From Subtercola boreus (GTDB lineage: Bacteria > Actinomycetota > Actinomycetes > Actinomycetales > Microbacteriaceae), in NCBI RefSeq assembly GCF_003399635.1, contig NZ_NBXB01000021.1:1-64000 (forward strand): 64,000 nucleotides of DNA, in the 5' to 3' direction. This document shows positions 16,002 to 26,787 of the stretch, in pieces. A program made the position numbers and the translations under genes. The notes under the pieces are model-generated. The model was given only the letters and a program-made list of their open reading frames with translations. It was not told where the DNA came from and searched no databases. How positions within the stretch are numbered: the first letter of the stretch is position 1; each line of letters begins with the position of its first letter.

Positions 16002-16826
16002 ATGGCCCCCACCACCTCAGACGCCCACCGGCACATCGGTGTTCTCCCGGCGTATCCATTCTATGGTGGCCCGGCGATCAACCCCGATACGACGGCGCGG
16101 GCGACGATCTCCGAGTTCATGGCCGATGTGGATGCCGAACAGACCGATCGCGCCCTGGTGCTGCCGAACTACGGGGTGCCGCTCGCGTCGGCGGCCTTTG
16201 ATCTGAACCCGCTCGCCATCGAGGCGGCCCAGCAGAACGAGCGGATCGTCTGCGGGTTGTGGGTGTCACCCCGGCCCGAGGACATCCTGCTTACCGAAAA
16301 CGCCCTGAAGCTGGCCGGGGAGCAGGGCGTGCGGGCACTGAAGACGAGCTTTCTGCTGGGCGGCAGCGCCACCGATGAGGCCTGCGCTTCCGCACTCGAC
16401 CGCATCTTCGAAACCGCGAAGCTGCATGACCTCGTGGTGCACGTGCACACCTCGCCGGGCGGTGCATCCGACATCGATCAGGTCGGCACACTTGTCGAGA
16501 AGTACGGCGACGATGTGAAGATCCACCTCGTGCACCTCGGCGGCGGCATGAGTGGCAACCTGAAGCTCATCGGCGGCCGCCTCTTCGACTGGATCGCGGC
16601 CGGCAAGAAGGTCTACACCGACACCAGCTGGACGATCGGATTCGCCCCACGCTGGCTGGTGCAGGAGATCGAGCGACGGGGGTTCGGCGAAGACCGGATC
16701 CTGTTCGCCAGCGACGCCCCGTGGGGCGACCACGAGGGTGAGTATGCCCGCATGCACGCCGCGGTGAAGGACACCGAACTCGCAGACCTCTTTCTGCGCG
16801 AGAACTTCGCAACGCTCTACGCCTGA
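16002..16826 (+). CDS. Amidohydrolase-2-type metal-dependent hydrolase, Nit cluster
   Basis: This TIM-barrel amidohydrolase is 274 aa. The N-terminal DAHRHIG (residues 7-13) supplies the first metal ligands; HVHTSPGG, HLVHLGG and the late FASDAPWG give the remaining His/Asp ligands. Family members hydrolyse or decarboxylate small cyclic or amide substrates. The start is fixed by the metal motif lying almost at the N-terminus; there is no clear ribosome site, so the transcript may be leaderless. It is first in a cluster of about ten co-directional genes. Its stop codon lies in a 15-bp tandem repeat. The substrate is unknown. Confidence 0.8.
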   Translation: MAPTTSDAHRHIGVLPAYPFYGGPAINPDTTARATISEFMADVDAEQTDRALVLPNYGVPLASAAFDLNPLAIEAAQQNERIVCGLWVSPRPEDILLTENALKLAGEQGVRALKTSFLLGGSATDEACASALDRIFETAKLHDLVVHVHTSPGGASDIDQVGTLVEKYGDDVKIHLVHLGGGMSGNLKLIGGRLFDWIAAGKKVYTDTSWTIGFAPRWLVQEIERRGFGEDRILFASDAPWGDHEGEYARMHAAVKDTELADLFLRENFATLYA

Positions 16827-16888
16827 ACACCGCACGCCTGAACACCGCACGCCCGAACACCGCACGCCTGAACTATGCACGCCTGAAG
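16821..16888. repeat. 15-bp tandem repeat starting at the amidohydrolase stop codon
   Basis: The unit GCCTGAACACCGCAC occurs at 16821, 16836, 16851 (one change) and 16866 (changed), with a partial copy at 16881. The first unit contains the last Ala codon and TGA stop of the amidohydrolase. The unit is a multiple of three, so each copy repeats the stop in the same frame. Confidence 0.85.
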
Positions 16889-16916
16889 CTCCACCCAACC
16901 CCGAAGGAGAAACACC

Positions 16917-17444
16917 GTGTCAGACGACATCGAAACCACCATCACCGAGAACATCGCCACGTCGATCGGCGAGATCGCCCACCCGTCGCTCCCGAAGGGC
17001 AGCAACATCTACGGGTCGACGAAGATCTTCCCCGACTACCAGGCCGAGCCCGGCCAGTCGTACTTCACGCTCGTGCACGGCATCGCGCACGAGTCATCCG
17101 TGAGCTTCGTGGCGATCCTGCAGGCGACCCGTGCACTTCGCAAGGGGTTCGAGTCGGCGATCTACTTCTACGGCCCCGGCGCGATGAACGCGATGGCCAC
17201 CCGCGGCTTCCCGACCACCGGCGACAGCGCCTTCCCGGGTGAGCAGAACATCAACGGCTCGCTCGAGACGTTCATCAAGGAGGGCGGCCGGGTCTTCGTC
17301 TGCCGCTTCGGCCTGTCGCTGCACGGCCTCCGCGAGGAAGACCTGATCGAGGGCGCCATTCCGGCCCACCCGCTCGATGTTCAGGACGCCCTCATCCACT
17401 ACGCCCGAAAGGGCGCCATCATCAACTCGACCTACAACTTCTAG
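16917..17444 (+). CDS. NitB-like protein (MSMEG_0572/Sll0783 family)
   Basis: This 175-aa protein belongs to the conserved MSMEG_0572/Sll0783 'nitrogen starvation response' family (NitB of the Nit1C cluster). Its biochemical role is not known. It has the alpha/beta character of DsrE-like proteins: an ILQATRALRKGFESAIYFYGPGA block near residues 67-89 and GGRVFVCRFGLSLHG near 122. No catalytic motif can be named. The GTG at 16917 has GAAGGAG at good spacing. It lies between the amidohydrolase and the radical SAM gene and is always found with the nitrilase cluster. Confidence 0.85.
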   Translation: MSDDIETTITENIATSIGEIAHPSLPKGSNIYGSTKIFPDYQAEPGQSYFTLVHGIAHESSVSFVAILQATRALRKGFESAIYFYGPGAMNAMATRGFPTTGDSAFPGEQNINGSLETFIKEGGRVFVCRFGLSLHGLREEDLIEGAIPAHPLDVQDALIHYARKGAIINSTYNF

Positions 17445-17451
17445 GCCGAGC

Positions 17452-18513
17452 ATGTCCAACGCCCTCTCCACCCGAGTGGATGTCGCGATCCGCGGCATCC
17501 GGGTCGATGCTCCTGTCACACGGCAGGCCGGTGCCGGCCCGAGCGACGACGCGCACGTCATGTTCGGTGGCGAGCAGGCGGCCATCCCGCAGAATTCGAA
17601 CAGCCCGTATCTCGTGAAGAACGGTCGGCTGCTTCTGGATGGTGCGGACATGGGTCTCGACGTCGTGCCGGTCACCCGGCCGAAGTTCTACGACCTCTCG
17701 ACCGCCGATGGCGTCTCGTACGAGCAGATCGCCAGGCTCCACGGCGCGAACGTGCTCGCCACGACGGTCGTGCAGACGTGCATCCGATACGGCGAGACCG
17801 ACCGCTGCCGGTTCTGCGCGATCGAGGCGTCGCTGCGCTCGGGTTCGACGATCGCGGTCAAGACGCCGGCGATGATCGCCGAGGTGGCGCTCGCCGCGTA
17901 CGAGCTCGACGGCATCCAGCAGATGGTGATGACGACGGGCACCTCGAACGGCAAGGATCGGGGTGCAAAACATCTCGCCCGCTGCGTTCGCGCCGTTCGC
18001 GCGGTGCTGCCCGACCTGCCCATCCAGGTGCAGTGCGAGCCGCCCGGCGACCTCGCGACGATCACCGACCTCTACGAGGCGGGGGCACGGTCCATCGGCA
18101 TCCACGTCGAGTCGATGGATGACGACGTCAGGGCGAAGTGGATGCCCGGCAAGAGCTCGGTCACCCTCGACGAGTACCGCGCGGCCTGGCGTGAGGCCGT
18201 GCGCGTGTTCGGCCACAACCAGGTGTCGACCTATCTGCTCGTGGGGATGGGTGAGGATCCGGACGAGATGGTGGCCGGCGCGCAGGAGCTCATCGACATG
18301 GGGGTGTATCCGTTCGTCGTGCCGTTCCGACCGTTGAAGGGCACGCTCGCCACCGATGTCGACCACGTTCCCGCGCCGAACCGGCTCGTGCTCGAGGACA
18401 TCTCGCGCCGGGTCGGGGCGTCGCTGGTGGCGGCCGGGATGCACGGGGCCGACCAGCAGGCCGGCTGTGCGGCCTGCGGTGCGTGCAGCATCCTGAAGAC
18501 GGCTGGCGCCTGA
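17452..18513 (+). CDS. Radical SAM protein, MSMEG_0568 family (NitD-like)
   Basis: A radical S-adenosylmethionine enzyme of 353 aa, one of the signature genes of Nit1C. The cluster-binding cysteines are Cys110, Cys119 and Cys122, a CX8CX2C spacing unlike the common CX3CX2C but typical of this family. The TIM-barrel core follows with MTTGTSNGKDRG near residue 163. The C-terminus has a second Cys group (GCAACGACS), perhaps for an auxiliary cluster. The ATG at 17452 is seven bases after the NitB-like stop. The chemistry is unknown; its strict linkage with nitrilase suggests it makes or modifies the nitrilase substrate. Confidence 0.9.
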   Translation: MSNALSTRVDVAIRGIRVDAPVTRQAGAGPSDDAHVMFGGEQAAIPQNSNSPYLVKNGRLLLDGADMGLDVVPVTRPKFYDLSTADGVSYEQIARLHGANVLATTVVQTCIRYGETDRCRFCAIEASLRSGSTIAVKTPAMIAEVALAAYELDGIQQMVMTTGTSNGKDRGAKHLARCVRAVRAVLPDLPIQVQCEPPGDLATITDLYEAGARSIGIHVESMDDDVRAKWMPGKSSVTLDEYRAAWREAVRVFGHNQVSTYLLVGMGEDPDEMVAGAQELIDMGVYPFVVPFRPLKGTLATDVDHVPAPNRLVLEDISRRVGASLVAAGMHGADQQAGCAACGACSILKTAGA

Positions 18514-20024
18514 TGAGCGTCGACGTCCCGTTCCTGACGGGGGCGCCGCGGGCGGTGCCCTCCGGGGTCGCCGCCGCTCCGGTGCCCTACCTGGTGCATG
18601 AGGCCGACGCCGCCGAGGTGCAGGCGTACCGGTTGCTCCGCCGCGAGACGTTCGTCGAGGAGCAGGGGCTGTTCGAGGGGCACGATCTCGACGAGCTCGA
18701 TCTCGATGCGCGCACCGTCGTGCTGGTCGCGCGGGCCGCCGACGGCACGGTGCTCGGCGGGGTGCGGCTCGCCCCGGCGACGCCCGACGTCGACCTCGGC
18801 TGGTGGACGGGCTCCCGCCTGGTCGTCGCCCGTGCCGCACGGGGTCAGCTCGGCATCGGCCCGGCGCTCGTGCAGGCCGCGTGTGCTCACGCCGAGGCCC
18901 GTGGGGTGCTCCGGTTCGAGGCGACGGTGCAGCCGGCAGCCGAGCGGATGTTCGCAAGACTCGGTTGGGAACGGATCGGTGAAGCGACCGTCGCCGGCGC
19001 CCCGCACGTGAGACTCCGCTGGCCGATCGGGCGGATCCAGCGGGCATCCGACTCCGCGAAGGCGCACCTGGAGGCGCTGCTCGACCCGTTCGGCGGCTGG
19101 GTGAACGCGCATCCTCTCTCCCTCGGCGGGCCCGACTACGTGGGCGACGACGGTGCGCCCGTACCCGGCACCGACGTGATCGCCGCGTGCGACGCCATCC
19201 TGCCGGCGATGGTGGAGCGCGACCCCGAGTGGGCGGGCTGGTGCGCGATCCTGGTGAATTTGAACGACATCAGCGCGATGGGGGCGACGCCCGTGGGCGT
19301 GCTCGACTCGCTCGGTGCCCGCGACGCCTCCTTCGCCCGGCGCATCATGGCAGGCCTCCGCAACGCGACCGAAGCGTGGGGCGTGCCGGTGCTCGGTGGG
19401 CACACGCAGCTCGGGGTGCCCGCGTCGCTCAGCGTGACGGCGCTTGGCCGCACCTCTGCTCCCGTGCGGGGTGGGGGCGCCCGCGCCGGGCACGCCCTGA
19501 CGGTGACCGCCGACCTCAGCGGAGGCTGGCGGCGCGGGTACGAAGGTTCCCAGTGGGATTCGACGTCGGGCCGTTCGGGCGCTGAGCTCCGTGCACTCAG
19601 CGCGCTGGTGCCGACCGCCCGGCCCGCCGCTGCGAAGGACATCAGCATGGCCGGCCTTGTCGGCACGATCGGCATGATGGCTGAGGCATCCGGTGTCGGG
19701 GCCGAGGTGAGCGTTGCCGACATCCCGCGGCCGGAAGCTGCCGGGATGGCCGACTGGATGACGTGCTTCCCCGGGTTCGGGATGGTGACGGCCGACGCGC
19801 CCGGCGCCGGACGGATGGCGGCGGCGCTCACTGCCGCGGGTGACCGGGCTGCGGGCGCGGGTGCGGGCAGCGCGGGTCGTGCAGGTTCCGCCGAGCATCC
19901 ACCCCTCGCCACCTCGGCCGAGTGCGGCACCATGACACACCAGCGGGGCGTCCGCCTGCGCTGGCCTGACGGCGAACTGACGACGGTGGTCGACTCCACG
20001 GTCACCGGATTGGGACGAGCATGA
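18513..20024 (+). CDS. Fused GNAT acetyltransferase - AIR-synthase-like protein (NitE-NitF)
   Basis: This is a two-domain protein of 503 aa. Residues 1-170 resemble the MSMEG_0567/Sll0786 GNAT domain, with RGQLGIGPALVQAA (about 110-124) as the acetyl-CoA loop. Residues 185-503 resemble the Sll0787 PurM/AIR-synthase-like family: VNLNDISAMGATPVGVLDS near 248 is the conserved Asp-containing PurM motif, and GHTQLG follows. In cyanobacteria and Pseudomonas the two are separate genes; fusion is known in actinobacteria. The ATG overlaps the radical SAM stop (TGATG), and the end overlaps the nitrilase start (ATGA). A Gly/Ala-rich insert lies near residue 445. Confidence 0.88.
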   Translation: MSVDVPFLTGAPRAVPSGVAAAPVPYLVHEADAAEVQAYRLLRRETFVEEQGLFEGHDLDELDLDARTVVLVARAADGTVLGGVRLAPATPDVDLGWWTGSRLVVARAARGQLGIGPALVQAACAHAEARGVLRFEATVQPAAERMFARLGWERIGEATVAGAPHVRLRWPIGRIQRASDSAKAHLEALLDPFGGWVNAHPLSLGGPDYVGDDGAPVPGTDVIAACDAILPAMVERDPEWAGWCAILVNLNDISAMGATPVGVLDSLGARDASFARRIMAGLRNATEAWGVPVLGGHTQLGVPASLSVTALGRTSAPVRGGGARAGHALTVTADLSGGWRRGYEGSQWDSTSGRSGAELRALSALVPTARPAAAKDISMAGLVGTIGMMAEASGVGAEVSVADIPRPEAAGMADWMTCFPGFGMVTADAPGAGRMAAALTAAGDRAAGAGAGSAGRAGSAEHPPLATSAECGTMTHQRGVRLRWPDGELTTVVDSTVTGLGRA

Positions 20025-21043
20025 CGAACGCAGTGCGCGTCGGGGCGGTGGCCGAGAACTTCGGCCGCGACCTCGAGCAGAACTACCTCCTGATCGGGGC
20101 CCTGCTCGCTGAGGCGCGGGCCCTGGGCGTCGCGCTGCTCGCCCTGCCCGAAGCCGCACTCGGCGGATACCTGTCGAGCCTCGGCGGGGGGCGGGATGTT
20201 GCGGCAACACTGAAACGTCGTCCCGACTCGCTGCCGCCGGCGCTCCGTCTCGACGGGCCGGAGCTCGCCCGGGTGATCGCGATGGCCGGCGACGTCGTCG
20301 TGGTCGTCGGGTTCTGCGAGGCAGACGGCGACCTCCGCTACAACACCGCTGTGGCGCTCGACGGCACGGGCGTGCTGGGGGTGCATCGCAAGGTGCACCA
20401 GCCGCTCGGTGAGAACATGTCGTACGCCGCGGGGACCGACTTCGAGGCCTTCGACACTCCCGTCGGCCGCATCGGCCTGCTGATCTGCTACGACAAGGCG
20501 TTCCCCGAGGCCGCCCGATCGCTCGCCCTCGACGGCGCGGAGATCGTGGTGTGCATCTCGGCCTGGCCGGCCTCCCAGACCGCCTCGAGCGACGACCTCA
20601 GCGAGGACCGCTGGACGAAACGCTTCAACCTCTTCGACCAGGCCCGCGCACTCGAGAACCAGATCGTCTGGGTGGCGTCGAACCAGAGCGGCACGTTCGG
20701 TTCGCTGCGGTTCGTGTCGAACGCGAAGGTGGTCGGGCCGGGTGGCGACATCCTCGCCACCACGGGCACGGCGAGCGGGATGGCCGTGGCCTCCGTCGAC
20801 GTGGCCGAGCTGCTCGGCACCGCGCGCCGCTCGATGTTCCACCTGCGCGACCGGATGCCCGCGACCTACCGCGTCGTCGAGCCGCCTGCCGCCGCCCCGC
20901 CCGCCGCCTCCCCGCCCGTCGGCGCCGCCACACCCACCGACGCCGAGGCCGTTTCCGCCACCCCCGCCGCTGCCGAGCGGACCGTTATTCAGGCACGGGA
21001 CACCGACGCGTTCGTATCCGAGCCGGAGGTCACCCATGCCTGA
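20021..21043 (+). CDS. Nitrilase, Nit1 type (NitC-like), catalytic triad intact
   Basis: This carbon-nitrogen hydrolase is 340 aa. The catalytic triad is complete: Glu44 in LPEAALGGY, Lys124 in HRKVHQPLGE and Cys156 in LLICYDKAFPE. It belongs with the Nit1 aliphatic nitrilases (Nit6803 type) that define the Nit1C cluster; such clusters have been tied to cyanide-nitrogen assimilation in Pseudomonas. Residues 285-335 are a Pro/Ala-rich tail not needed for the fold. The ATG overlaps the preceding stop by four bases, and the end overlaps the NitG-like start. A paralogue with a broken triad lies 1.8 kb downstream. Confidence 0.92.
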   Translation: MTNAVRVGAVAENFGRDLEQNYLLIGALLAEARALGVALLALPEAALGGYLSSLGGGRDVAATLKRRPDSLPPALRLDGPELARVIAMAGDVVVVVGFCEADGDLRYNTAVALDGTGVLGVHRKVHQPLGENMSYAAGTDFEAFDTPVGRIGLLICYDKAFPEAARSLALDGAEIVVCISAWPASQTASSDDLSEDRWTKRFNLFDQARALENQIVWVASNQSGTFGSLRFVSNAKVVGPGGDILATTGTASGMAVASVDVAELLGTARRSMFHLRDRMPATYRVVEPPAAAPPAASPPVGAATPTDAEAVSATPAAAERTVIQARDTDAFVSEPEVTHA

Positions 21044-21341
21044 AATGACGTTCACCGTGCGCTGGCCCGACGGTAGCGTGGCCGACTGCTACTCGCCGTC
21101 GTTGGTCATGCACGACCACCTTCTCGTGGGCGAGAGCTACCCGCTCGCCGAGTTCGTCTACCGCACGAATACCGCTCTCGATCTGGCAAGCGAACGGGTG
21201 CGGGCCAAGTACGGATTCGAATGCACGTCGGCCCGGCAGCAGCAGAGCGAGATCGCGGTGGTTGCGTCGCGCTTCGCCGCGGCTCCGGATGCCCGCGTCG
21301 AGGTTCTCGCGATGGTGCCGCCGCTCGGGGTGAACCCGTGA
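21036..21341 (+). CDS. Small NitG-like protein (MSMEG_0570 family)
   Basis: A 101-aa protein of the MSMEG_0570 'nitrogen starvation response' family, a constant and uncharacterised member of Nit1C clusters. It starts MPEMTFTVRWPDGSVADCYSP. The 'RWPDG...YSPS' block is the family hallmark, and a similar RLRWPDG phrase ends the NitE-F fusion. Translation overlaps at both sides: the ATG lies eight bases inside the nitrilase gene and the stop overlaps the flavoprotein GTG as GTGA. No catalytic residues are recognised. Confidence 0.85.
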   Translation: MPEMTFTVRWPDGSVADCYSPSLVMHDHLLVGESYPLAEFVYRTNTALDLASERVRAKYGFECTSARQQQSEIAVVASRFAAAPDARVEVLAMVPPLGVNP

Positions 21342-22792
21342 ACGGGGAGAGCCGGTCATCCGGAGCCCCCGGCGCGACCGATGCTGCGCCAGCGCCGGAG
21401 CACCACACCGTCGTCATCATCGGGGCCGGCCAGGCCGGGCTCTCCGCAAGTTGGCACCTCACGCAGCAGGGCATCGAGCATGTGCTCCTCGAACGCGGCA
21501 CGATCGCGCACGAATGGAAAGATGGGCGCTGGGACAACTTCACCCTCGTCACCCCGAACTGGCAGTGCAGGCTGCCGGGCTACGAGTACGCGGGTGACGA
21601 CCCCGAGGGGTTCATGAAGCGCGACCTCGTCCACGACTTCGTACGCGAGTATGCACAGCTCTTCGGCGCGCCCGTGCGCGAGAACGTCTCCGTCGACCAG
21701 CTCACCGAGGGTGCCGCCGGCGGGTTCTCGCTCAGCACCTCGGCGGGGCCGATGACGGCTGACAACGTGATCGTCGCCACCGGTGGGTACCACAGGCCGA
21801 TCATCCCGGCCTCGGCGGAACGCCTGCCGCCGTGGATCACCCAAGTGCACTCCTCGGAGTACAAGAACGCCGCCGCGTTGCCGCCCGGGGCCGTGCTGGT
21901 CGTCGGCACCGGCCAGTCGGGCGCCCAGATCGCCGAAGACCTGCACCTCGAAGGACGGAAGGTGCATCTCGCAGTGGGTGGCGCCCCGCGCGCCCCGCGC
22001 TTCTATCGGGGCCGCGACAGCCTCGACTGGCTGGACGCGATGGGCGTCTACGACATCCCCGTCGAGCTCCAGCCCGGCGGGCTCGCCGCGCGCGAGAAGA
22101 CGAACCACTACTTCACCGGTCGCGACGGCGGGCGGGACGTCGACCTCCGCCAGTTCGCGCTCGAAGGTATGAGGCTCTACGGCCGGCTGAAGTGCGCGAA
22201 CGGGACCTCGCTGCAGTTCGCGCCCAACCTGGCGACGTCGCTCGACTACGCGGACTCCGTGGCCGAGTCGATCAAGAACGACATCGACCGCTACATCGTG
22301 CGGGAGGGGATCGAGGCACCCACCGAGGCGCGGTATGTCCCGGTGTGGCGTCCACCGTTCGAAGCCACCGAACTCGACCTGGCCATCAACGAGGTGTCGA
22401 CCATCATCTGGTCGATCGGCTACCGGGCCGACTACAGCTGGATCCGGGTCGGCGTGTTCGACGGGGTCGGCCAGCCGACGCACACGCGGGGCGTGACGGG
22501 GATTCCGGGGCTCTACTTCCTCGGGCTGCCGTGGCTGCACACGTGGGGTTCCGGCCGGTTCGCGGGCATCGCGCGCGATGCGGAGTACGTGGCGGGGGCG
22601 ATCGGTGGCGCGCTGGGCGGGTCGGGTGCTGTGGCGACCGGCGCGACGGTGGCGGGTACGGCGAAGGTGGCGGGTGCGGCGAAGGCGGCGGGAGCGGTGG
22701 CTGGCGGCGCGATGGCAGCGAGTGCGGCACCGGATGTCGCGGGGGCGCCCACTTTGGCGCGGCAGACGGTCCCCTCCGCAGCGGGAGCCTGA
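21338..22792 (+). CDS. FAD-dependent oxidoreductase, MSMEG_0569 family (NitH-like)
   Basis: A class-B flavin monooxygenase-like protein of 484 aa. The FAD motif VVIIGAGQAGLSASWHL is at about residues 24-40 and an NADPH-type site VLVVGTGQSGAQIAEDL near 188. IATGG and a late GLPWLHTWGSGRF are typical of this family. Its role in Nit1C is proposed to be oxidation of the nitrile-forming substrate, which is not proven. The GTG at 21338 overlaps the upstream stop. From about residue 425 on, the protein carries an Ala/Gly/Val-rich tail, a lineage-specific addition also seen on other proteins of this cluster. Confidence 0.9.
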   Translation: MNGESRSSGAPGATDAAPAPEHHTVVIIGAGQAGLSASWHLTQQGIEHVLLERGTIAHEWKDGRWDNFTLVTPNWQCRLPGYEYAGDDPEGFMKRDLVHDFVREYAQLFGAPVRENVSVDQLTEGAAGGFSLSTSAGPMTADNVIVATGGYHRPIIPASAERLPPWITQVHSSEYKNAAALPPGAVLVVGTGQSGAQIAEDLHLEGRKVHLAVGGAPRAPRFYRGRDSLDWLDAMGVYDIPVELQPGGLAAREKTNHYFTGRDGGRDVDLRQFALEGMRLYGRLKCANGTSLQFAPNLATSLDYADSVAESIKNDIDRYIVREGIEAPTEARYVPVWRPPFEATELDLAINEVSTIIWSIGYRADYSWIRVGVFDGVGQPTHTRGVTGIPGLYFLGLPWLHTWGSGRFAGIARDAEYVAGAIGGALGGSGAVATGATVAGTAKVAGAAKAAGAVAGGAMAASAAPDVAGAPTLARQTVPSAAGA

Positions 22793-22823
22793 CGGGCATC
22801 CGCTCGCTCGTACACTCGACTCC

Positions 22824-23765
22824 ATGGCAGAAATCACGCTGGCCGCCGTCGCCGCGCACTTCGGGCGCGACATCTCGCGCGCGATGCCGAAGATCGAGGG
22901 CATCATCTCCGATGCGCGCTCGCAGGACGTCGACCTGCTCGTCTTTCCCGACGCCACGCTCGGCGGCTATCTCGCGAGCCTGGCGAGCCCCGACCCGGCC
23001 GAGCTGCCGCCGTCGGTCTCGATCGACGGGCCGGAGATCGGCCAGATCATCCAGTGGGCCGGTGACATGGTGGTGTGCCTCGCGTTCACCGAGGAGGTCG
23101 CGATGGCGGATGGCCGGCACCTTTACAACACGTCGGTGTGTGTCGATTCGACCGGCGTGCTGGGGGTGCATCGCAAGGTGCACCAGCCGCTCGGGGAGTC
23201 GCTCGTCTACGACCACGGCGACTCGTTCACGGCTTTCGACACGCCTGTGGGCCGGATCGGAATGCTGATCGACTACGACAAGACGTTCCCCGAGGCTGCC
23301 CGGTCGCTGGCGCTTGACGGCGCGGAGATCATCGCCTGCCTCTCGGCATGGCCGGCGAGCACCACGAACCGAGCGGAACGGCTGCCGCAAGATAGGCAGT
23401 CACGGCTCTTCGACCTCTACGACTGCGCTCGCGCGGCCGAGAACCAGGTCATCCTGGTGTCGTCCAACCAGACGGGGGTGATGGGCGGGCTGCGCTTCCT
23501 CGGGCAGGCGAAGGTGGTCGGGCCGGGCGGCGACGTGCTCGCGAAGACGTGGAACAAGGGCGCGCTCGCGGTGGCGCACATCGACGTGCAGCACGAGGTC
23601 GGACGCGCGAGGCGGAAGCTCCACCACCTGCGGGAGCGGGCGGTCGGGGCGTACCACCCCGGGATCGTGGGGGGTGGAGTGGCAGGCGCGGGCGCGGCGG
23701 CGCTCGACGGTGTCGCCCGAGACGCACCCGCCCGGGCATCCGTCCCGCTCGCCGGGCTGGTCTGA
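22824..23765 (+). CDS. Nitrilase-fold paralogue with two catalytic residues lost
   Basis: This 313-aa carbon-nitrogen hydrolase homologue aligns without gaps at the motifs of the intact nitrilase at 20021. The catalytic Glu is replaced by Asp43 (FPDATLGGY) and the nucleophilic Cys by Asp150 (MLIDYDKTFPE); Lys118 (HRKVHQPLGE) is kept. Loss of the Cys should abolish nitrilase chemistry. Nitrilases assemble into spirals, so a regulatory or structural partner of the active copy is plausible, as is a new reaction. The codon context is clear in the DNA (ATC GAC TAC GAC), so this is not a misread. The ATG at 22824 follows the flavoprotein by 31 bases. Confidence 0.9.
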   Translation: MAEITLAAVAAHFGRDISRAMPKIEGIISDARSQDVDLLVFPDATLGGYLASLASPDPAELPPSVSIDGPEIGQIIQWAGDMVVCLAFTEEVAMADGRHLYNTSVCVDSTGVLGVHRKVHQPLGESLVYDHGDSFTAFDTPVGRIGMLIDYDKTFPEAARSLALDGAEIIACLSAWPASTTNRAERLPQDRQSRLFDLYDCARAAENQVILVSSNQTGVMGGLRFLGQAKVVGPGGDVLAKTWNKGALAVAHIDVQHEVGRARRKLHHLRERAVGAYHPGIVGGGVAGAGAAALDGVARDAPARASVPLAGLV

Positions 23766-23768
23766 ACC

Positions 23769-25115
23769 GTGCGCATCGCGCTGCTCACCTACTCGACCAA
23801 GCCGCGTGGCGGTGTCGTGCACACCCTCGCGCTGGCCGAGGCGCTTGTCGCTGCGGGCGAGCAGGTCGACGTCTGGACGCTCGGACGAGGCGGCGACCGC
23901 ACTTTCTTCCGCCGGGTCGATCCGCGGGTCGGTCTGTGCGTCGTGCCGTTCACCGCGCAAGACGGAGAGACGGTGGGGGAGCGCATTCTCCGTTCGATCG
24001 AGAGCCTCCGGGCATCCTTCACCCCCGATCTGTACGACATCGTGCACGCTCAGGACTGCATCTCGGCGAACGCGGTGGATCGCTCGGTGCGCACCGTGCA
24101 CCACCTCGACACGTTCACGACTCCCGAGCTCGTCGCCTGCCACGAGCGGGCGATCGTGCGCCCCCTCGCGTTGATCTGCGTCTCGGCGGCCGTCGCGGCC
24201 GAGGTGCAGCAGGGCTGGGGGCTCGCCGCCACGGTCATCCCGAACGGAGTCGACTCCGCTCGTTTCGGGGCCGCGGCCGGCGCGACTCCGGATGCCATTG
24301 CCGCCGTCGCCCGCTGGCAGCGGTCGCTCGGGCGCTACGTGCTCGCGGTCGGCGGGATCGAACCGCGGAAGGGCAGCATCGACCTGCTCGAGGCCTTCGC
24401 GCTCGTACAGACCGCGGTTCCGGATGCCCGTCTGGTGTTCGCGGGCGGCGAGACGTTGTTCGACTACTCCGGGTACCGCGCGCGGTTCGAGGCGCGGGCG
24501 GCGGAGCTCGGGGTGTCGTACGAACTGCTCGGAACGGTCGACGACGACGAGCTGCCGTCCCTCGTGGCGGGCGCGGCCGTGCTGTCGTTCGTCTCGACGA
24601 AGGAGGGATTCGGGCTGGCCGCGATGGAGGCGCTCGCGGCCGGCGTGCCCGTGGTCGCGCGCGACCTCCCCGTGCTGCGGGAAGTCTTCGGCGGCACGGT
24701 CTCGTACGCCTCAGACGTCGCGGGCATCGCGGCGGCGCTCGCGCGCCTGCTCGCCCTCCGCCCGGCGCCCGGGGCCCCCGCGCCTCCCGCCCGCCCCGCC
24801 GCCGCGCGCCCCGCCGCCACCTCTCTCACTCCTGATTCCGCCTTTCCCGCGCGTTCAGGGGACGCAAATCGTTCGTCCGCACCATCGTTGGAGCGTTTTG
24901 GGGCCCTTCGACGGGTTGAGGAGGATGCGGCGCCCGGGGAGGGAGGCTGGGATCCCGAGCGCGGGCGGGCGCTGGCGCGGACGTTCAGTTGGGCATCCGC
25001 CGCCGAGAGCCACCGCGACCTGTATCGCGCTCTGATCGCCCGCTCGGCGTTCGGACCGGTGGCTCCGGGCGGGCCAGCGGTCACGGCACCCACGCCTCCC
25101 GCAGCGGATGCCTAG
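23769..25115 (+). CDS. Glycosyltransferase, GT4 / MSMEG_0565 family
   Basis: A GT-B fold glycosyltransferase of 448 aa, the MSMEG_0565 type linked to nitrilase clusters. The N-terminus LLTYSTKPRGGVVHTLALAE is the donor/acceptor loop; VIPNGVD near 155, VGGIEPRKGSIDLL near 197 and the catalytic E-x7-E region STKEGFGLAAMEALAAGVPV near 277 are GT4 motifs. Residues 333-392 are a low-complexity Pro/Ala stretch followed by Ser/Arg-rich sequence, splitting the last helix (RTFSWASAAESHRDLY) from the core; the DNA there (24760-24960) looks inserted. The GTG at 23769 follows the nitrilase paralogue by three bases, so the genes are coupled. Confidence 0.88.
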   Translation: MRIALLTYSTKPRGGVVHTLALAEALVAAGEQVDVWTLGRGGDRTFFRRVDPRVGLCVVPFTAQDGETVGERILRSIESLRASFTPDLYDIVHAQDCISANAVDRSVRTVHHLDTFTTPELVACHERAIVRPLALICVSAAVAAEVQQGWGLAATVIPNGVDSARFGAAAGATPDAIAAVARWQRSLGRYVLAVGGIEPRKGSIDLLEAFALVQTAVPDARLVFAGGETLFDYSGYRARFEARAAELGVSYELLGTVDDDELPSLVAGAAVLSFVSTKEGFGLAAMEALAAGVPVVARDLPVLREVFGGTVSYASDVAGIAAALARLLALRPAPGAPAPPARPAAARPAATSLTPDSAFPARSGDANRSSAPSLERFGALRRVEEDAAPGEGGWDPERGRALARTFSWASAAESHRDLYRALIARSAFGPVAPGGPAVTAPTPPAADA

Positions 25116-26787
25116 CGCCGTGGCGCGCATGTCGATCTCGCGGGCGATCTCGTGGCTGGCGGCGGAGCATCCCGACACCATCGCCGCGCGCGACGACGAC
25201 ACCGCCCTCACCTGGCGGGAGCTCGACCTCCGCACGAACCGTCTCGCCCGCGCCTACGCCGAGCTCGGAGTGGGCGTCGATTCGTTCGTCACGGTGGCCC
25301 TGCCGAACTCCGTGGAGTTCGTCGAGAGTTGCGTCGCCGCCTGGAAGCTCGGCGCCACCCCCCAGCCGCTCTCCTACCGTCTGCCACCCGCAGAGCGGGC
25401 CGCTGTGCTGGCGCTCGCGCGGCCCGCGCTGGTCGTCGGGTTGGACGCCGCGCCCGGCACGGCCGTGCCCGCTGCCGCCGCCTCACCCACCACCGCCGCG
25501 CAACCCGGCGGCGTCGCAACACCGTCGGCCGCGACATCCATCGCCGTGCCTCACCTCCCGCCGGGCTTCGCACCGCGCGCGGACCTCTCCGACGCTGAAC
25601 TCCCCGACGCGGCAGCCGCCTCGTGGAAGGCTCCCACTTCCAGCGGGAGCACCGGGCGTCCGAAGCTGATTCTCGCTGCGGCGTCAGCGCACGTCGACCC
25701 CGAGGGCCGCGTCGCCTCGTTCGTGCCGGCGCAGGCCGTGCAACTCGTCTCGGGCCCGCTGTTCCATTCGGCGCCGTTCACCTACGCGATGCGGGGGCTG
25801 ATGACAGGGCACACCCTCGTGATCCTGCCGCGCTTCGACGAACGCCGCGTGCTCGAGGCCATCGGCCTTCACCGCATCACCTGGGCGCCGCTCGTGCCGA
25901 CGATGATGAACCGCATCTGGCGCCTGCCGGCCGCGGTGAAGGATGCCTCGGACCTTGGCTCGCTCGAATCGATCCTGCACATCGGATCGGCGTGCCCGCC
26001 CTGGCTGAAGCGCGCCTTCATCGACTGGATCGGCCCCGACCGCGTCGTGGAGGTCTACGCGGGCACCGAATCGCAGGGCATCTCCACTATCACGGGCGGG
26101 GAGTGGCTCGAGCATCCGGGTTCCGTCGGGCGTCCGGGAGCCGGATCCGAGATGCAGATCTGGGGGCCGGATGATCGCCCCCTGCCCATCGGCGAGACCG
26201 GCCGCATCATGATGAGGCGGTCGGGAGGGCCCACCTACTCGTACCGGGGTAGCGCGGCGCAGCTGCGCCCGGACGGCTGGGACACCCTCGGCGACCTCGG
26301 CCACCTCGACGCCGACGGCTACCTCTACGTGGCCGATCGCGCGGACGACCTCATCATCACGGGAGGGGTGAACGTCTACCCCGCGGAGGTGGAGGGGGTG
26401 CTCGAGGAGCACCCCGGCATCCGCTCGGCCGTGGTCTTCGGACTGCCTGACGACGACCTCGGCGAGGTGGTGGTGGCGCTGGTCGACGTGGGCGGCGTGT
26501 CGGCTGGCCCTGCGGGCGTGGGTGGCGCGGCGGCTGACCCTACGGGCATGGTGTCGGGCGTGCGCGCTGACGGCACGGTTTTGGGGGTCGGCCAGCCGGT
26601 TACCGAGGCAGCGCTGCTCACCTGGCTGCGGCCGCGGCTCGACCCTGAGAAGCGCCCGCGCCGCATCGAGTTCACGACGGAGCCCGTGCGCGACGACGCA
26701 GGCAAGGTACGCCGTCACCTGTTGCGCGCCGAGCGCGGCGAGCGTGCCGAGCGCGCCGAGCGCGGCGCTCCGCCGTCGTACTCCTGA
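25108..26787 (+). CDS. Acyl-/aryl-CoA ligase-like AMP-dependent enzyme
   Basis: An ANL-superfamily adenylating enzyme of 559 aa. The P-loop TSSGSTGRPKLI is near residue 182 and the AMP/hinge motif GDLGHLDADGYLYVADRADD near 395. The latter is followed by TGGVNVYPAEVE. The catalytic Lys region near the C-terminus is DDAGKVRRH. Similarity is to bile-acid/acyl-CoA ligases; the substrate is unknown. Two Ala/Gly/Val-rich inserts (about 115-150 and 460-490) and a C-terminal ERAERAERG repeat resemble the low-complexity additions of neighbouring genes. The ATG overlaps the glycosyltransferase stop. It is the last gene of the Nit-cluster transcript. Confidence 0.85.
   Translation: MPSAVARMSISRAISWLAAEHPDTIAARDDDTALTWRELDLRTNRLARAYAELGVGVDSFVTVALPNSVEFVESCVAAWKLGATPQPLSYRLPPAERAAVLALARPALVVGLDAAPGTAVPAAAASPTTAAQPGGVATPSAATSIAVPHLPPGFAPRADLSDAELPDAAAASWKAPTSSGSTGRPKLILAAASAHVDPEGRVASFVPAQAVQLVSGPLFHSAPFTYAMRGLMTGHTLVILPRFDERRVLEAIGLHRITWAPLVPTMMNRIWRLPAAVKDASDLGSLESILHIGSACPPWLKRAFIDWIGPDRVVEVYAGTESQGISTITGGEWLEHPGSVGRPGAGSEMQIWGPDDRPLPIGETGRIMMRRSGGPTYSYRGSAAQLRPDGWDTLGDLGHLDADGYLYVADRADDLIITGGVNVYPAEVEGVLEEHPGIRSAVVFGLPDDDLGEVVVALVDVGGVSAGPAGVGGAAADPTGMVSGVRADGTVLGVGQPVTEAALLTWLRPRLDPEKRPRRIEFTTEPVRDDAGKVRRHLLRAERGERAERAERGAPPSYS

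Follow-up and report, generated by a model that had tools for sequence, protein, structure and literature searches.

The gpr cluster of M. smegmatis (MSMEG_0565-0572) is described as depending on GlnR and as having a link to the peroxide resistance of biofilms, and its MSMEG_0566 product has been named an aliphatic amidase that could aid nitrogen assimilation (PMC6039565). Under nitrogen starvation, the tabulated mRNA ratios of wild type over a glnR deletion are 8.94-fold for MSMEG_0566 and 48.04-fold for MSMEG_0571 (PMC4222082, Table 1), and under nitrogen-limited conditions MSMEG_0566 is listed with an expression ratio of 2.96 (PMC4617892). The Nit1C cluster, whose genes in Pseudomonas bear letter names such as nitC (PMC11049912), has been described with one nitrilase (PMC1199592). 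The window analyzed here, a 64,000-nt stretch of Subtercola boreus (contig NZ_NBXB01000021.1), contains a cluster of this general type with two nitrilase homologs. The product of positions 22824-23765, the main subject of this report, is labeled the D-copy, and that of positions 20021-21043 the C-copy. As judged from sequence comparisons, the D-copy is a real, conserved protein of many soil actinobacteria, tied to a nitrogen-starvation gene cluster; it is probably, though with much room for doubt, a non-hydrolytic, ligand-binding pseudo-nitrilase.

The window has the same gene families as the gpr cluster, and the MSMEG_0572, radical SAM MSMEG_0568, GNAT-AIR MSMEG_0567, and flavoprotein MSMEG_0569 families, taken here as the mark of a gpr/Nit1C-type cluster, occur in it together. 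With amidohydrolase and AMP-ligase genes ignored, the order at locus L174 and at 7 of 80 named loci is 0572, C-copy, 0570, flavoprotein, radical SAM, GNAT-AIR, D-copy, glycosyltransferase (GT), which matches the MSMEG numbering. MSMEG_0566 would therefore be the D-copy counterpart and MSMEG_0571 that of the C-copy, an assignment made by gene order alone and not from the M. smegmatis sequence. The name aliphatic amidase, as printed for MSMEG_0566, then becomes doubtful, since the D-copy clade has no amidase nucleophile. The Nit1C cluster (Nit6803/NitC-type) is similar in having radical SAM, GNAT, and AIR-synthase-like genes around a carbon-nitrogen (CN) hydrolase, with a flavin oxidoreductase and in some cases a GT (PMC1199592, PMC11049912). 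It differs in that a single canonical nitrilase is described there, while the window has two CN hydrolases, neither of the Nit6803 family and one without the cysteine. A literature search, with subscription journals mostly outside it, found no paper joining nitrilase, pseudoenzyme, and catalytic cysteine, and, among the papers listed, by titles and the starts of abstracts, no Cys-less nitrilase described in a cluster of this type.

Active-site residues of the D-copy

The two genes and the four active-site codons of the D-copy, all on the forward strand, are as follows.

22824-23765, +: D-copy, nitrilase-fold paralog with D43-K118-E125-D150 replacing E-K-E-C; open frame, 313 amino acids
20021-21043, +: C-copy, intact nitrilase homolog of the cluster, E44-K124-E131-C156; 340 amino acids
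22950-22952, +: Asp43, codon GAC, at the catalytic Glu position (aligned to MtCPA Glu48)
23175-23177, +: Lys118, codon AAG, catalytic Lys kept (aligned to MtCPA Lys121)
23196-23198, +: Glu125, codon GAG, auxiliary Glu kept (aligned to MtCPA Glu132)
23271-23273, +: Asp150, codon GAC, at the nucleophilic Cys position, in the strand-to-helix elbow of a structural model

Both copies match Pfam CN_hydrolase (PF00795) well above its gathering cut-off of 23.2 (112.3 bits for the D-copy, 130 for the C-copy), and the D-copy is predicted by the model to have the alpha-beta-beta-alpha nitrilase fold. They align by BLASTP with 148/284 identities (52%), an E value of 2e-94, and 13 gap positions. Where MtCPA (N-carbamoylputrescine amidohydrolase, 5h8i-5h8l) and D-carbamoylase (1erz, 1uf4) have Glu-Lys-Cys, the D-copy has Asp43-Lys118-Asp150; the auxiliary second Glu is present as Glu125. 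An earlier note on this DNA had read Glu44 and Cys156 of the C-copy as replaced by Asp43 and Asp150, with the Lys kept, and the codons agree (GAA to GAC, TGC to GAC, and AAG for Lys118 opposite AAG for Lys124). The gap-free alignment it described holds for the motifs but not for the full-length proteins, with their 13 gap positions. The Glu that it described as lost is better put as changed to Asp, a conservative replacement in which the carboxylate is preserved; E125, the second Glu of the active site, is retained. Sequencing error was considered as a source of the difference and rejected: TGC to GAC takes two base changes, more than a single error would supply, and the same D-K-E-D set is found in a second genome of the genus (G007, locus L084).

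Neither CN hydrolase of the window reaches a curated NCBIfam cut-off. The nearest model to the D-copy is an archaeal nitrilase (86 bits against a cut-off of 500) and to the C-copy an N-carbamoylputrescine amidase (93 bits against 410), while the Nit6803 family (TIGR04048, cut-off 502.6) scores only 36.8 bits with the D-copy and 37.8 with the other. The source genome has a third, distant homolog, with 32% identity over residues 17-187.

Distribution, origin, and conservation of the D-copy clade

Relatives were compared in two sets. A pattern-based scan gave 80 named loci out of 362 relatives. The set free of motif bias consists of 26 genomes only, found by genome similarity searches: 21 of 299 genomes of the family (the source genome included), four more in a phylum sample of 396, and one in the order of G667, in which 99 genomes were searched. 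In a first count, from which rows below 200 bits were dropped and which includes the same genome from two collections, D-K-E-D was present in 98 of 101 rows and E-K-E-C in all 76 C-copies. For a second count, identical rows and those under 190-200 amino acids were removed, and rows with an internal stop were cut there and the longest piece kept. This left 102 distinct members of the D clade, 98 with D-K-E-D, two with D-K-E-S (L088 and L090), one with Y-K-E-D (L015, from a metagenome-assembled genome, MAG), and one with D-K-D-D (L116). The 26 genomes gave 23, two, and one for D-K-E-D, D-K-E-S, and D-K-D-D. Cys at position 150 was found in none of the 102 distinct rows and none of the 26 genomes. 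Two E-K-E-C rows that are D-like by best hit were left out of the clade count: L126 is not part of the clade in the tree described below, and L109, a distant relative picked up by a weak match (E 3e-22), is in none of the trees. The distant C-type rows L003, L192, and L193 are gapped at position 43. The clade spans the class of the window and at least one other actinobacterial class.

In the two D-K-E-S rows, from one lineage, Ile-Asp is replaced by Thr149-Ser150 (GMLTSYDKTF), which gives the nucleophile position a third state.

In a 58-row tree, the 22 D-copy rows form one side of a single branch (Shimodaira-Hasegawa-like approximate likelihood-ratio test, SH-aLRT, 96), and in a tree made without columns 43 and 150 the support is 97/90, from 39 rows. 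By these trees, the catalytic residues would thus have been lost once, as far as sampled. The root among the three groups is uncertain, and the grouping of an extra Cys set with the D-copy in the second tree hinges on midpoint rooting. Two genomes of another class hold two homologs each, G398 (L117, L122) and G419 (L119, L126), and it was considered whether such Cys-bearing pairs represent an earlier stage of the pair found here. This was rejected because the extra copies form a separate Cys group in the 58-row tree (L117, L118, L120, L126-L129, L134, L135). The clusters fetched from that class (L158, L161, L163, L170, L171) have a C-copy and neither a D-copy nor a GT in the fetched stretch; in two of these five genomes, G398 and G419, the GT family was not found genome-wide either, at E 1e-60.

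Purifying selection on the D-copy is evident from the ratio of nonsynonymous to synonymous substitution rates (dN/dS). Pooled over fifteen non-overlapping close pairs (14 for three of the genes) with a simple Nei-Gojobori script, and excluding high-dS pairs as well as those where the D-copy had been matched at a locus lacking the C-copy, the values are 0.072 for the D-copy, 0.108 for the C-copy, 0.042 for 0572, 0.072 for radical SAM, 0.134 for GNAT-AIR, 0.114 for the flavoprotein, and 0.145 for the GT, all rough in absolute terms given the high-GC codon bias. Between the window and G007 alone, the D-copy gives 0.057 and the C-copy 0.068. Constraint on the D-copy is therefore no weaker than that on the C-copy. 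Columns of the alignment are on average 61% identical among 75 D-copies and 54% among 67 C-copies, an uneven comparison in that the C-copy set is wider in taxonomy.

Both the absence of Cys from the clade and the purifying selection support the view of the earlier note that the D-copy is conserved rather than decayed. The outcome it named as fatal to this view, homologs keeping Cys and Glu as expected from a private decay, was looked for in the clade alignment and not found. Decay of a redundant paralog would account for the change of two catalytic residues, but with fixation across genera and classes, one origin, and dN/dS of 0.057 against G007 and 0.072 pooled, it can be set aside as refuted, with a negligible chance of being right.

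Pocket positions were mapped by alignment to MtCPA, the eighteen used being its pocket plus direct neighbors as chosen by the authors. MtCPA Tyr54, Lys121, Pro125, Glu132, Asp160, Gln161, Ala183, and Ile184 correspond to Tyr49, Lys118, Pro122, Glu125, Asp152, Lys153, Ala175, and Trp176 of the D-copy, each kept in at least 74 of 75 D-copies, and the two Asp are held in 74/75 and 73/75. Overall, 14 of the 18 D-copy pocket positions are conserved at 97% or more, against 79/260 elsewhere in the protein (p 9e-5); the C-copy has 13/18 against 60/266 (p 2e-5). If the two swapped residues are left out, the numbers are 12/16 and 11/16. A merely idle site would be expected to drift, which this one has not, so the pocket is presumably still used.

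The two copies have different residues, each fixed at 90% or more, at no more than six positions (D-copy/C-copy): D43/E44, D150/C156, T154/A160, Q192/W198, L195/R201, and L226/V232. Three of them align with the catalytic floor of MtCPA, including T154, which aligns with Trp162; in MtCPA, Gln161 and Trp162 hydrogen-bond the hydrolytic water (PMC4812014). Two homologs of one cluster, with so few fixed differences and half of them in the catalytic floor, offer a natural comparison.

Possible roles of the D-copy

With its catalytic residues lost, its fold kept, and its sequence under purifying selection, the D-copy has the marks of a pseudoenzyme, its inactivity being predicted from the residues. 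A role in binding is the account most likely to be correct, if by no means securely; pairing with the C-copy, a narrower form that overlaps it, is a tentative suggestion, and new chemistry, the main rival, seems rather unlikely. The first account starts from what the sequences show: two Asp took the place of the nucleophile and base of the Glu-Lys-Cys chemistry, by the tree once, and did so before the gene spread through the Actinomycetes and one or more further classes of actinobacteria. Both have been retained from then on, as have Lys118, Glu125, and most of the pocket. Asp150 may lie beside Lys118 and fill the nucleophile position through a salt bridge. Since no thioester could form without the Cys, the D-copy might bind a small pathway intermediate of the gpr/Nit1C type (amide-, carbamoyl-, or nitrile-like) without hydrolyzing it in the usual way, and could act as a binding or regulatory subunit in the pathway, alone or with the C-copy.

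Several points weigh against this account. The binding role proposed for members of the clade is read from sequence comparison. The scan patterns included the Asp-bearing peptide GMLIDYDK, which favors Asp rows among the named loci. The Asp set is not absolute, with Ser150 in L088 and L090, Asp125 in L116, and Tyr43 in L015. A conserved pocket would suit new catalysis as well as binding, and part of its conservation may be due to folding or to packing of the dimer.

If the residue argument holds, the hydrolase or aliphatic amidase label would be wrong for the whole clade, and models of ammonia release by this gene would need revision. In public annotation of a Rhodococcus qingshengii plasmid (described below), both copies are called carbon-nitrogen hydrolase family proteins. 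To our knowledge, no product has been agreed on for clusters of the gpr/Nit1C type, so a conserved protein that binds one of the intermediates could provide a handle for finding it.

Members of the superfamily form dimers through their A-surface. Each MtCPA pocket receives Trp277 from the other subunit of the dimer (PMC4812014). The earlier note proposed that the D-copy partners the active nitrilase in its oligomer; in the form considered here, it would join the C-copy in mixed dimers or oligomers through the A-surface and tune activity or specificity. This fits the joint occurrence of the two genes. They are found together in 21/21 D-copy genomes of the family sample of 299, in which no genome has only one of them at this similarity level, and the C-copy is present in all five D-copy genomes beyond that sample (G372, G512, G593, G667, G874). 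Both are at 75 of the 80 named loci, and in the other five cases (L005, L008, L030, L069, L074) a C-copy is found elsewhere in the genome. A broken cluster therefore does not separate the two copies into different genomes, and adjacency is not what keeps them in one. It also fits the helix after the nucleophile elbow, in which 17 of 18 residues are identical between the window copies, compared to 122/236 elsewhere. The next helix of the interface region (191-210) has just 10/20 identities, no better than the rest of the protein. Both helices presumably belong to the A-surface.

Other comparisons also count against pairing. Partial mirror-tree correlations with the D-copy, from protein distances at 78 loci, are 0.39 for GNAT-AIR, 0.23 for radical SAM, 0.20 for 0572, 0.18 for the GT, and -0.05 for the C-copy; special co-evolution of the D-copy with the C-copy is thus not seen in this test, which is a weak one. 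In four genomes (those of L005, L008, L030, and L069) the copies are on different contigs with other neighbors. L074 was not counted with these because its D-copy and C-copy contigs are a few kb long and may be one broken cluster. The C-copy also occurs in clusters without a D-copy in another class (L158, L161, L163, L170, L171). The partnership proposal has the shared genomes and the first helix in its favor, and the second helix, the mirror-tree, and the split genomes against it.

The other option raised by the earlier note is new chemistry: the D-copy could have a cysteine-free active site, D43-K118-E125-D150, catalyzing for example a lyase reaction of the acid-base kind, a transferase or hydratase reaction, or one assisted by a metal. 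Both Asp are conserved to the degree expected of catalytic residues, the pocket is as tight as in the C-copy, half of the six fixed differences fall in the catalytic floor as in a retuned site, and the gene is inside a multi-enzyme cluster. Nevertheless, no solved nitrilase-fold enzyme with Asp at this position was found among the entries compared by titles and printed alignments, Ser150 in two rows is at odds with a required Asp150, and any substrate is only putative. A clade-wide non-cysteine site of two or three carboxylates plus Lys, with the two CN-hydrolase homologs of the cluster performing different steps of a nitrogen-starvation pathway, seems rather unlikely. Still less probable, and indeed improbable, is an Asp-based hydrolase in which either Asp150, as the nucleophile, or a water activated by Asp43 attacks an amide or nitrile. 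Part of the machinery remains for this in Lys118 and Glu125, but the position of the water-holding MtCPA Trp162 also differs between the copies (T154 against A160), and structure entries of mutants at the equivalent Cys, by their titles, hold bound ligands.

The gene cluster and its variants

The cluster occupies 16002-26787, with all genes closely packed on one strand in the order amidohydrolase, MSMEG_0572, radical SAM 0568, GNAT-AIR 0567, C-copy, 0570, flavoprotein 0569, D-copy, GT 0565, and AMP-ligase. Besides the two copies, its genes are as follows, the six MSMEG families all exceeding their curated cut-offs.

16002-16826, +: amidohydrolase (Amidohydro_2), upstream neighbor
16917-17444, +: MSMEG_0572/Sll0783 family protein (247.5 bits, cut-off 109.85)
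17452-18513, +: MSMEG_0568 family radical SAM protein (500 bits, cut-off 303.7)
18507-20024, +: MSMEG_0567 family GNAT and AIR-synthase-like protein (437.5 bits, cut-off 312.2)
21042-21341, +: MSMEG_0570 family protein, start codon not fixed (125 bits, cut-off 79.85)
21338-22792, +: MSMEG_0569 family flavin-dependent oxidoreductase (642 bits, cut-off 498.35)
23769-25115, +: MSMEG_0565 family GT, directly 3' of the D-copy (433 bits, cut-off 259.85)
25108-26787, +: AMP-binding acyl-CoA synthetase-like protein, overlapping the GT gene

The core order is kept at 54 of the 80 named loci. The Amidohydro_2 gene looks like an unlisted member of the cluster, as it is present at 28 of these loci and in six of seven nitrilase-free clusters (below). 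Four products of the window have Ala/Pro/Gly-rich C-terminal tails: the C-copy (20873-21043), flavoprotein (22620-22792), D-copy (23658-23765), and GT (24760-25115). The C-copy tail is far shorter in G007.

The GT gene is directly 3' of the D-copy at 85 of 87 loci. The two exceptions are L021, which ends before the GT position, and L005, with 9 kb of downstream sequence lacking a GT. A strict tie between the two was nonetheless rejected: the GT also occurs in clusters without a CN hydrolase (L217-L223, 7/7 fetched), and in the L005 genome it is with the C-copy. The clusters L217-L223, from seven genomes of the phylum outside the window's class, have 0572, radical SAM, and MSMEG_0565-type GT genes, with amidohydrolase and GNAT/AIR matches in six of seven each, and no CN hydrolase was found in the fetched stretches by tblastn or with a hidden Markov model of the D- and C-copies. 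From their gene content, these appear to be relatives of the Nit1C/gpr cluster that have no nitrilase.

Where the cluster is split, the D-copy stays with radical SAM, GNAT-AIR, and GT at L008, L030, and L069, and the separate C-copy adjoins 0572 or the flavoprotein in these genomes and that of L074. At L008/L176 and L030/L196, an MSMEG_0572-type gene precedes both halves (complete in the first pair, cut by a contig end in the second), which suggests a second copy of this gene. In the L005 genome (a Lacisediminihabitans MAG, G942), the D-copy has left the cluster, with an AMP-ligase-like match before it and no cluster gene in the 9 kb downstream; the C-copy and GT share another contig.

For M. 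smegmatis, it has been proposed that selenocysteine is inserted at the UGA that terminates MSMEG_0571, giving a fusion that reaches MSMEG_0569 (PMC6039565). The C-copy of the window likewise ends in TGA (21041-21043), but 0570 is a family gene in its own right. Three Williamsia loci (among L041, L048, L051, L069, and L195) have a C-copy and 0570 but lack a nearby flavoprotein gene, and the L069/L195 genome has its C-copy apart from 0570. Together these favor reading the codon as a plain stop.

A cluster with both copies is also found on a plasmid, pN9T4-1 of Rhodococcus qingshengii N9T-4 (L224), which is 565 kb long and typed as mobilizable, with a transposase gene downstream of the cluster. 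Three other Rhodococcus plasmids have D-copy matches at 66-67% identity.
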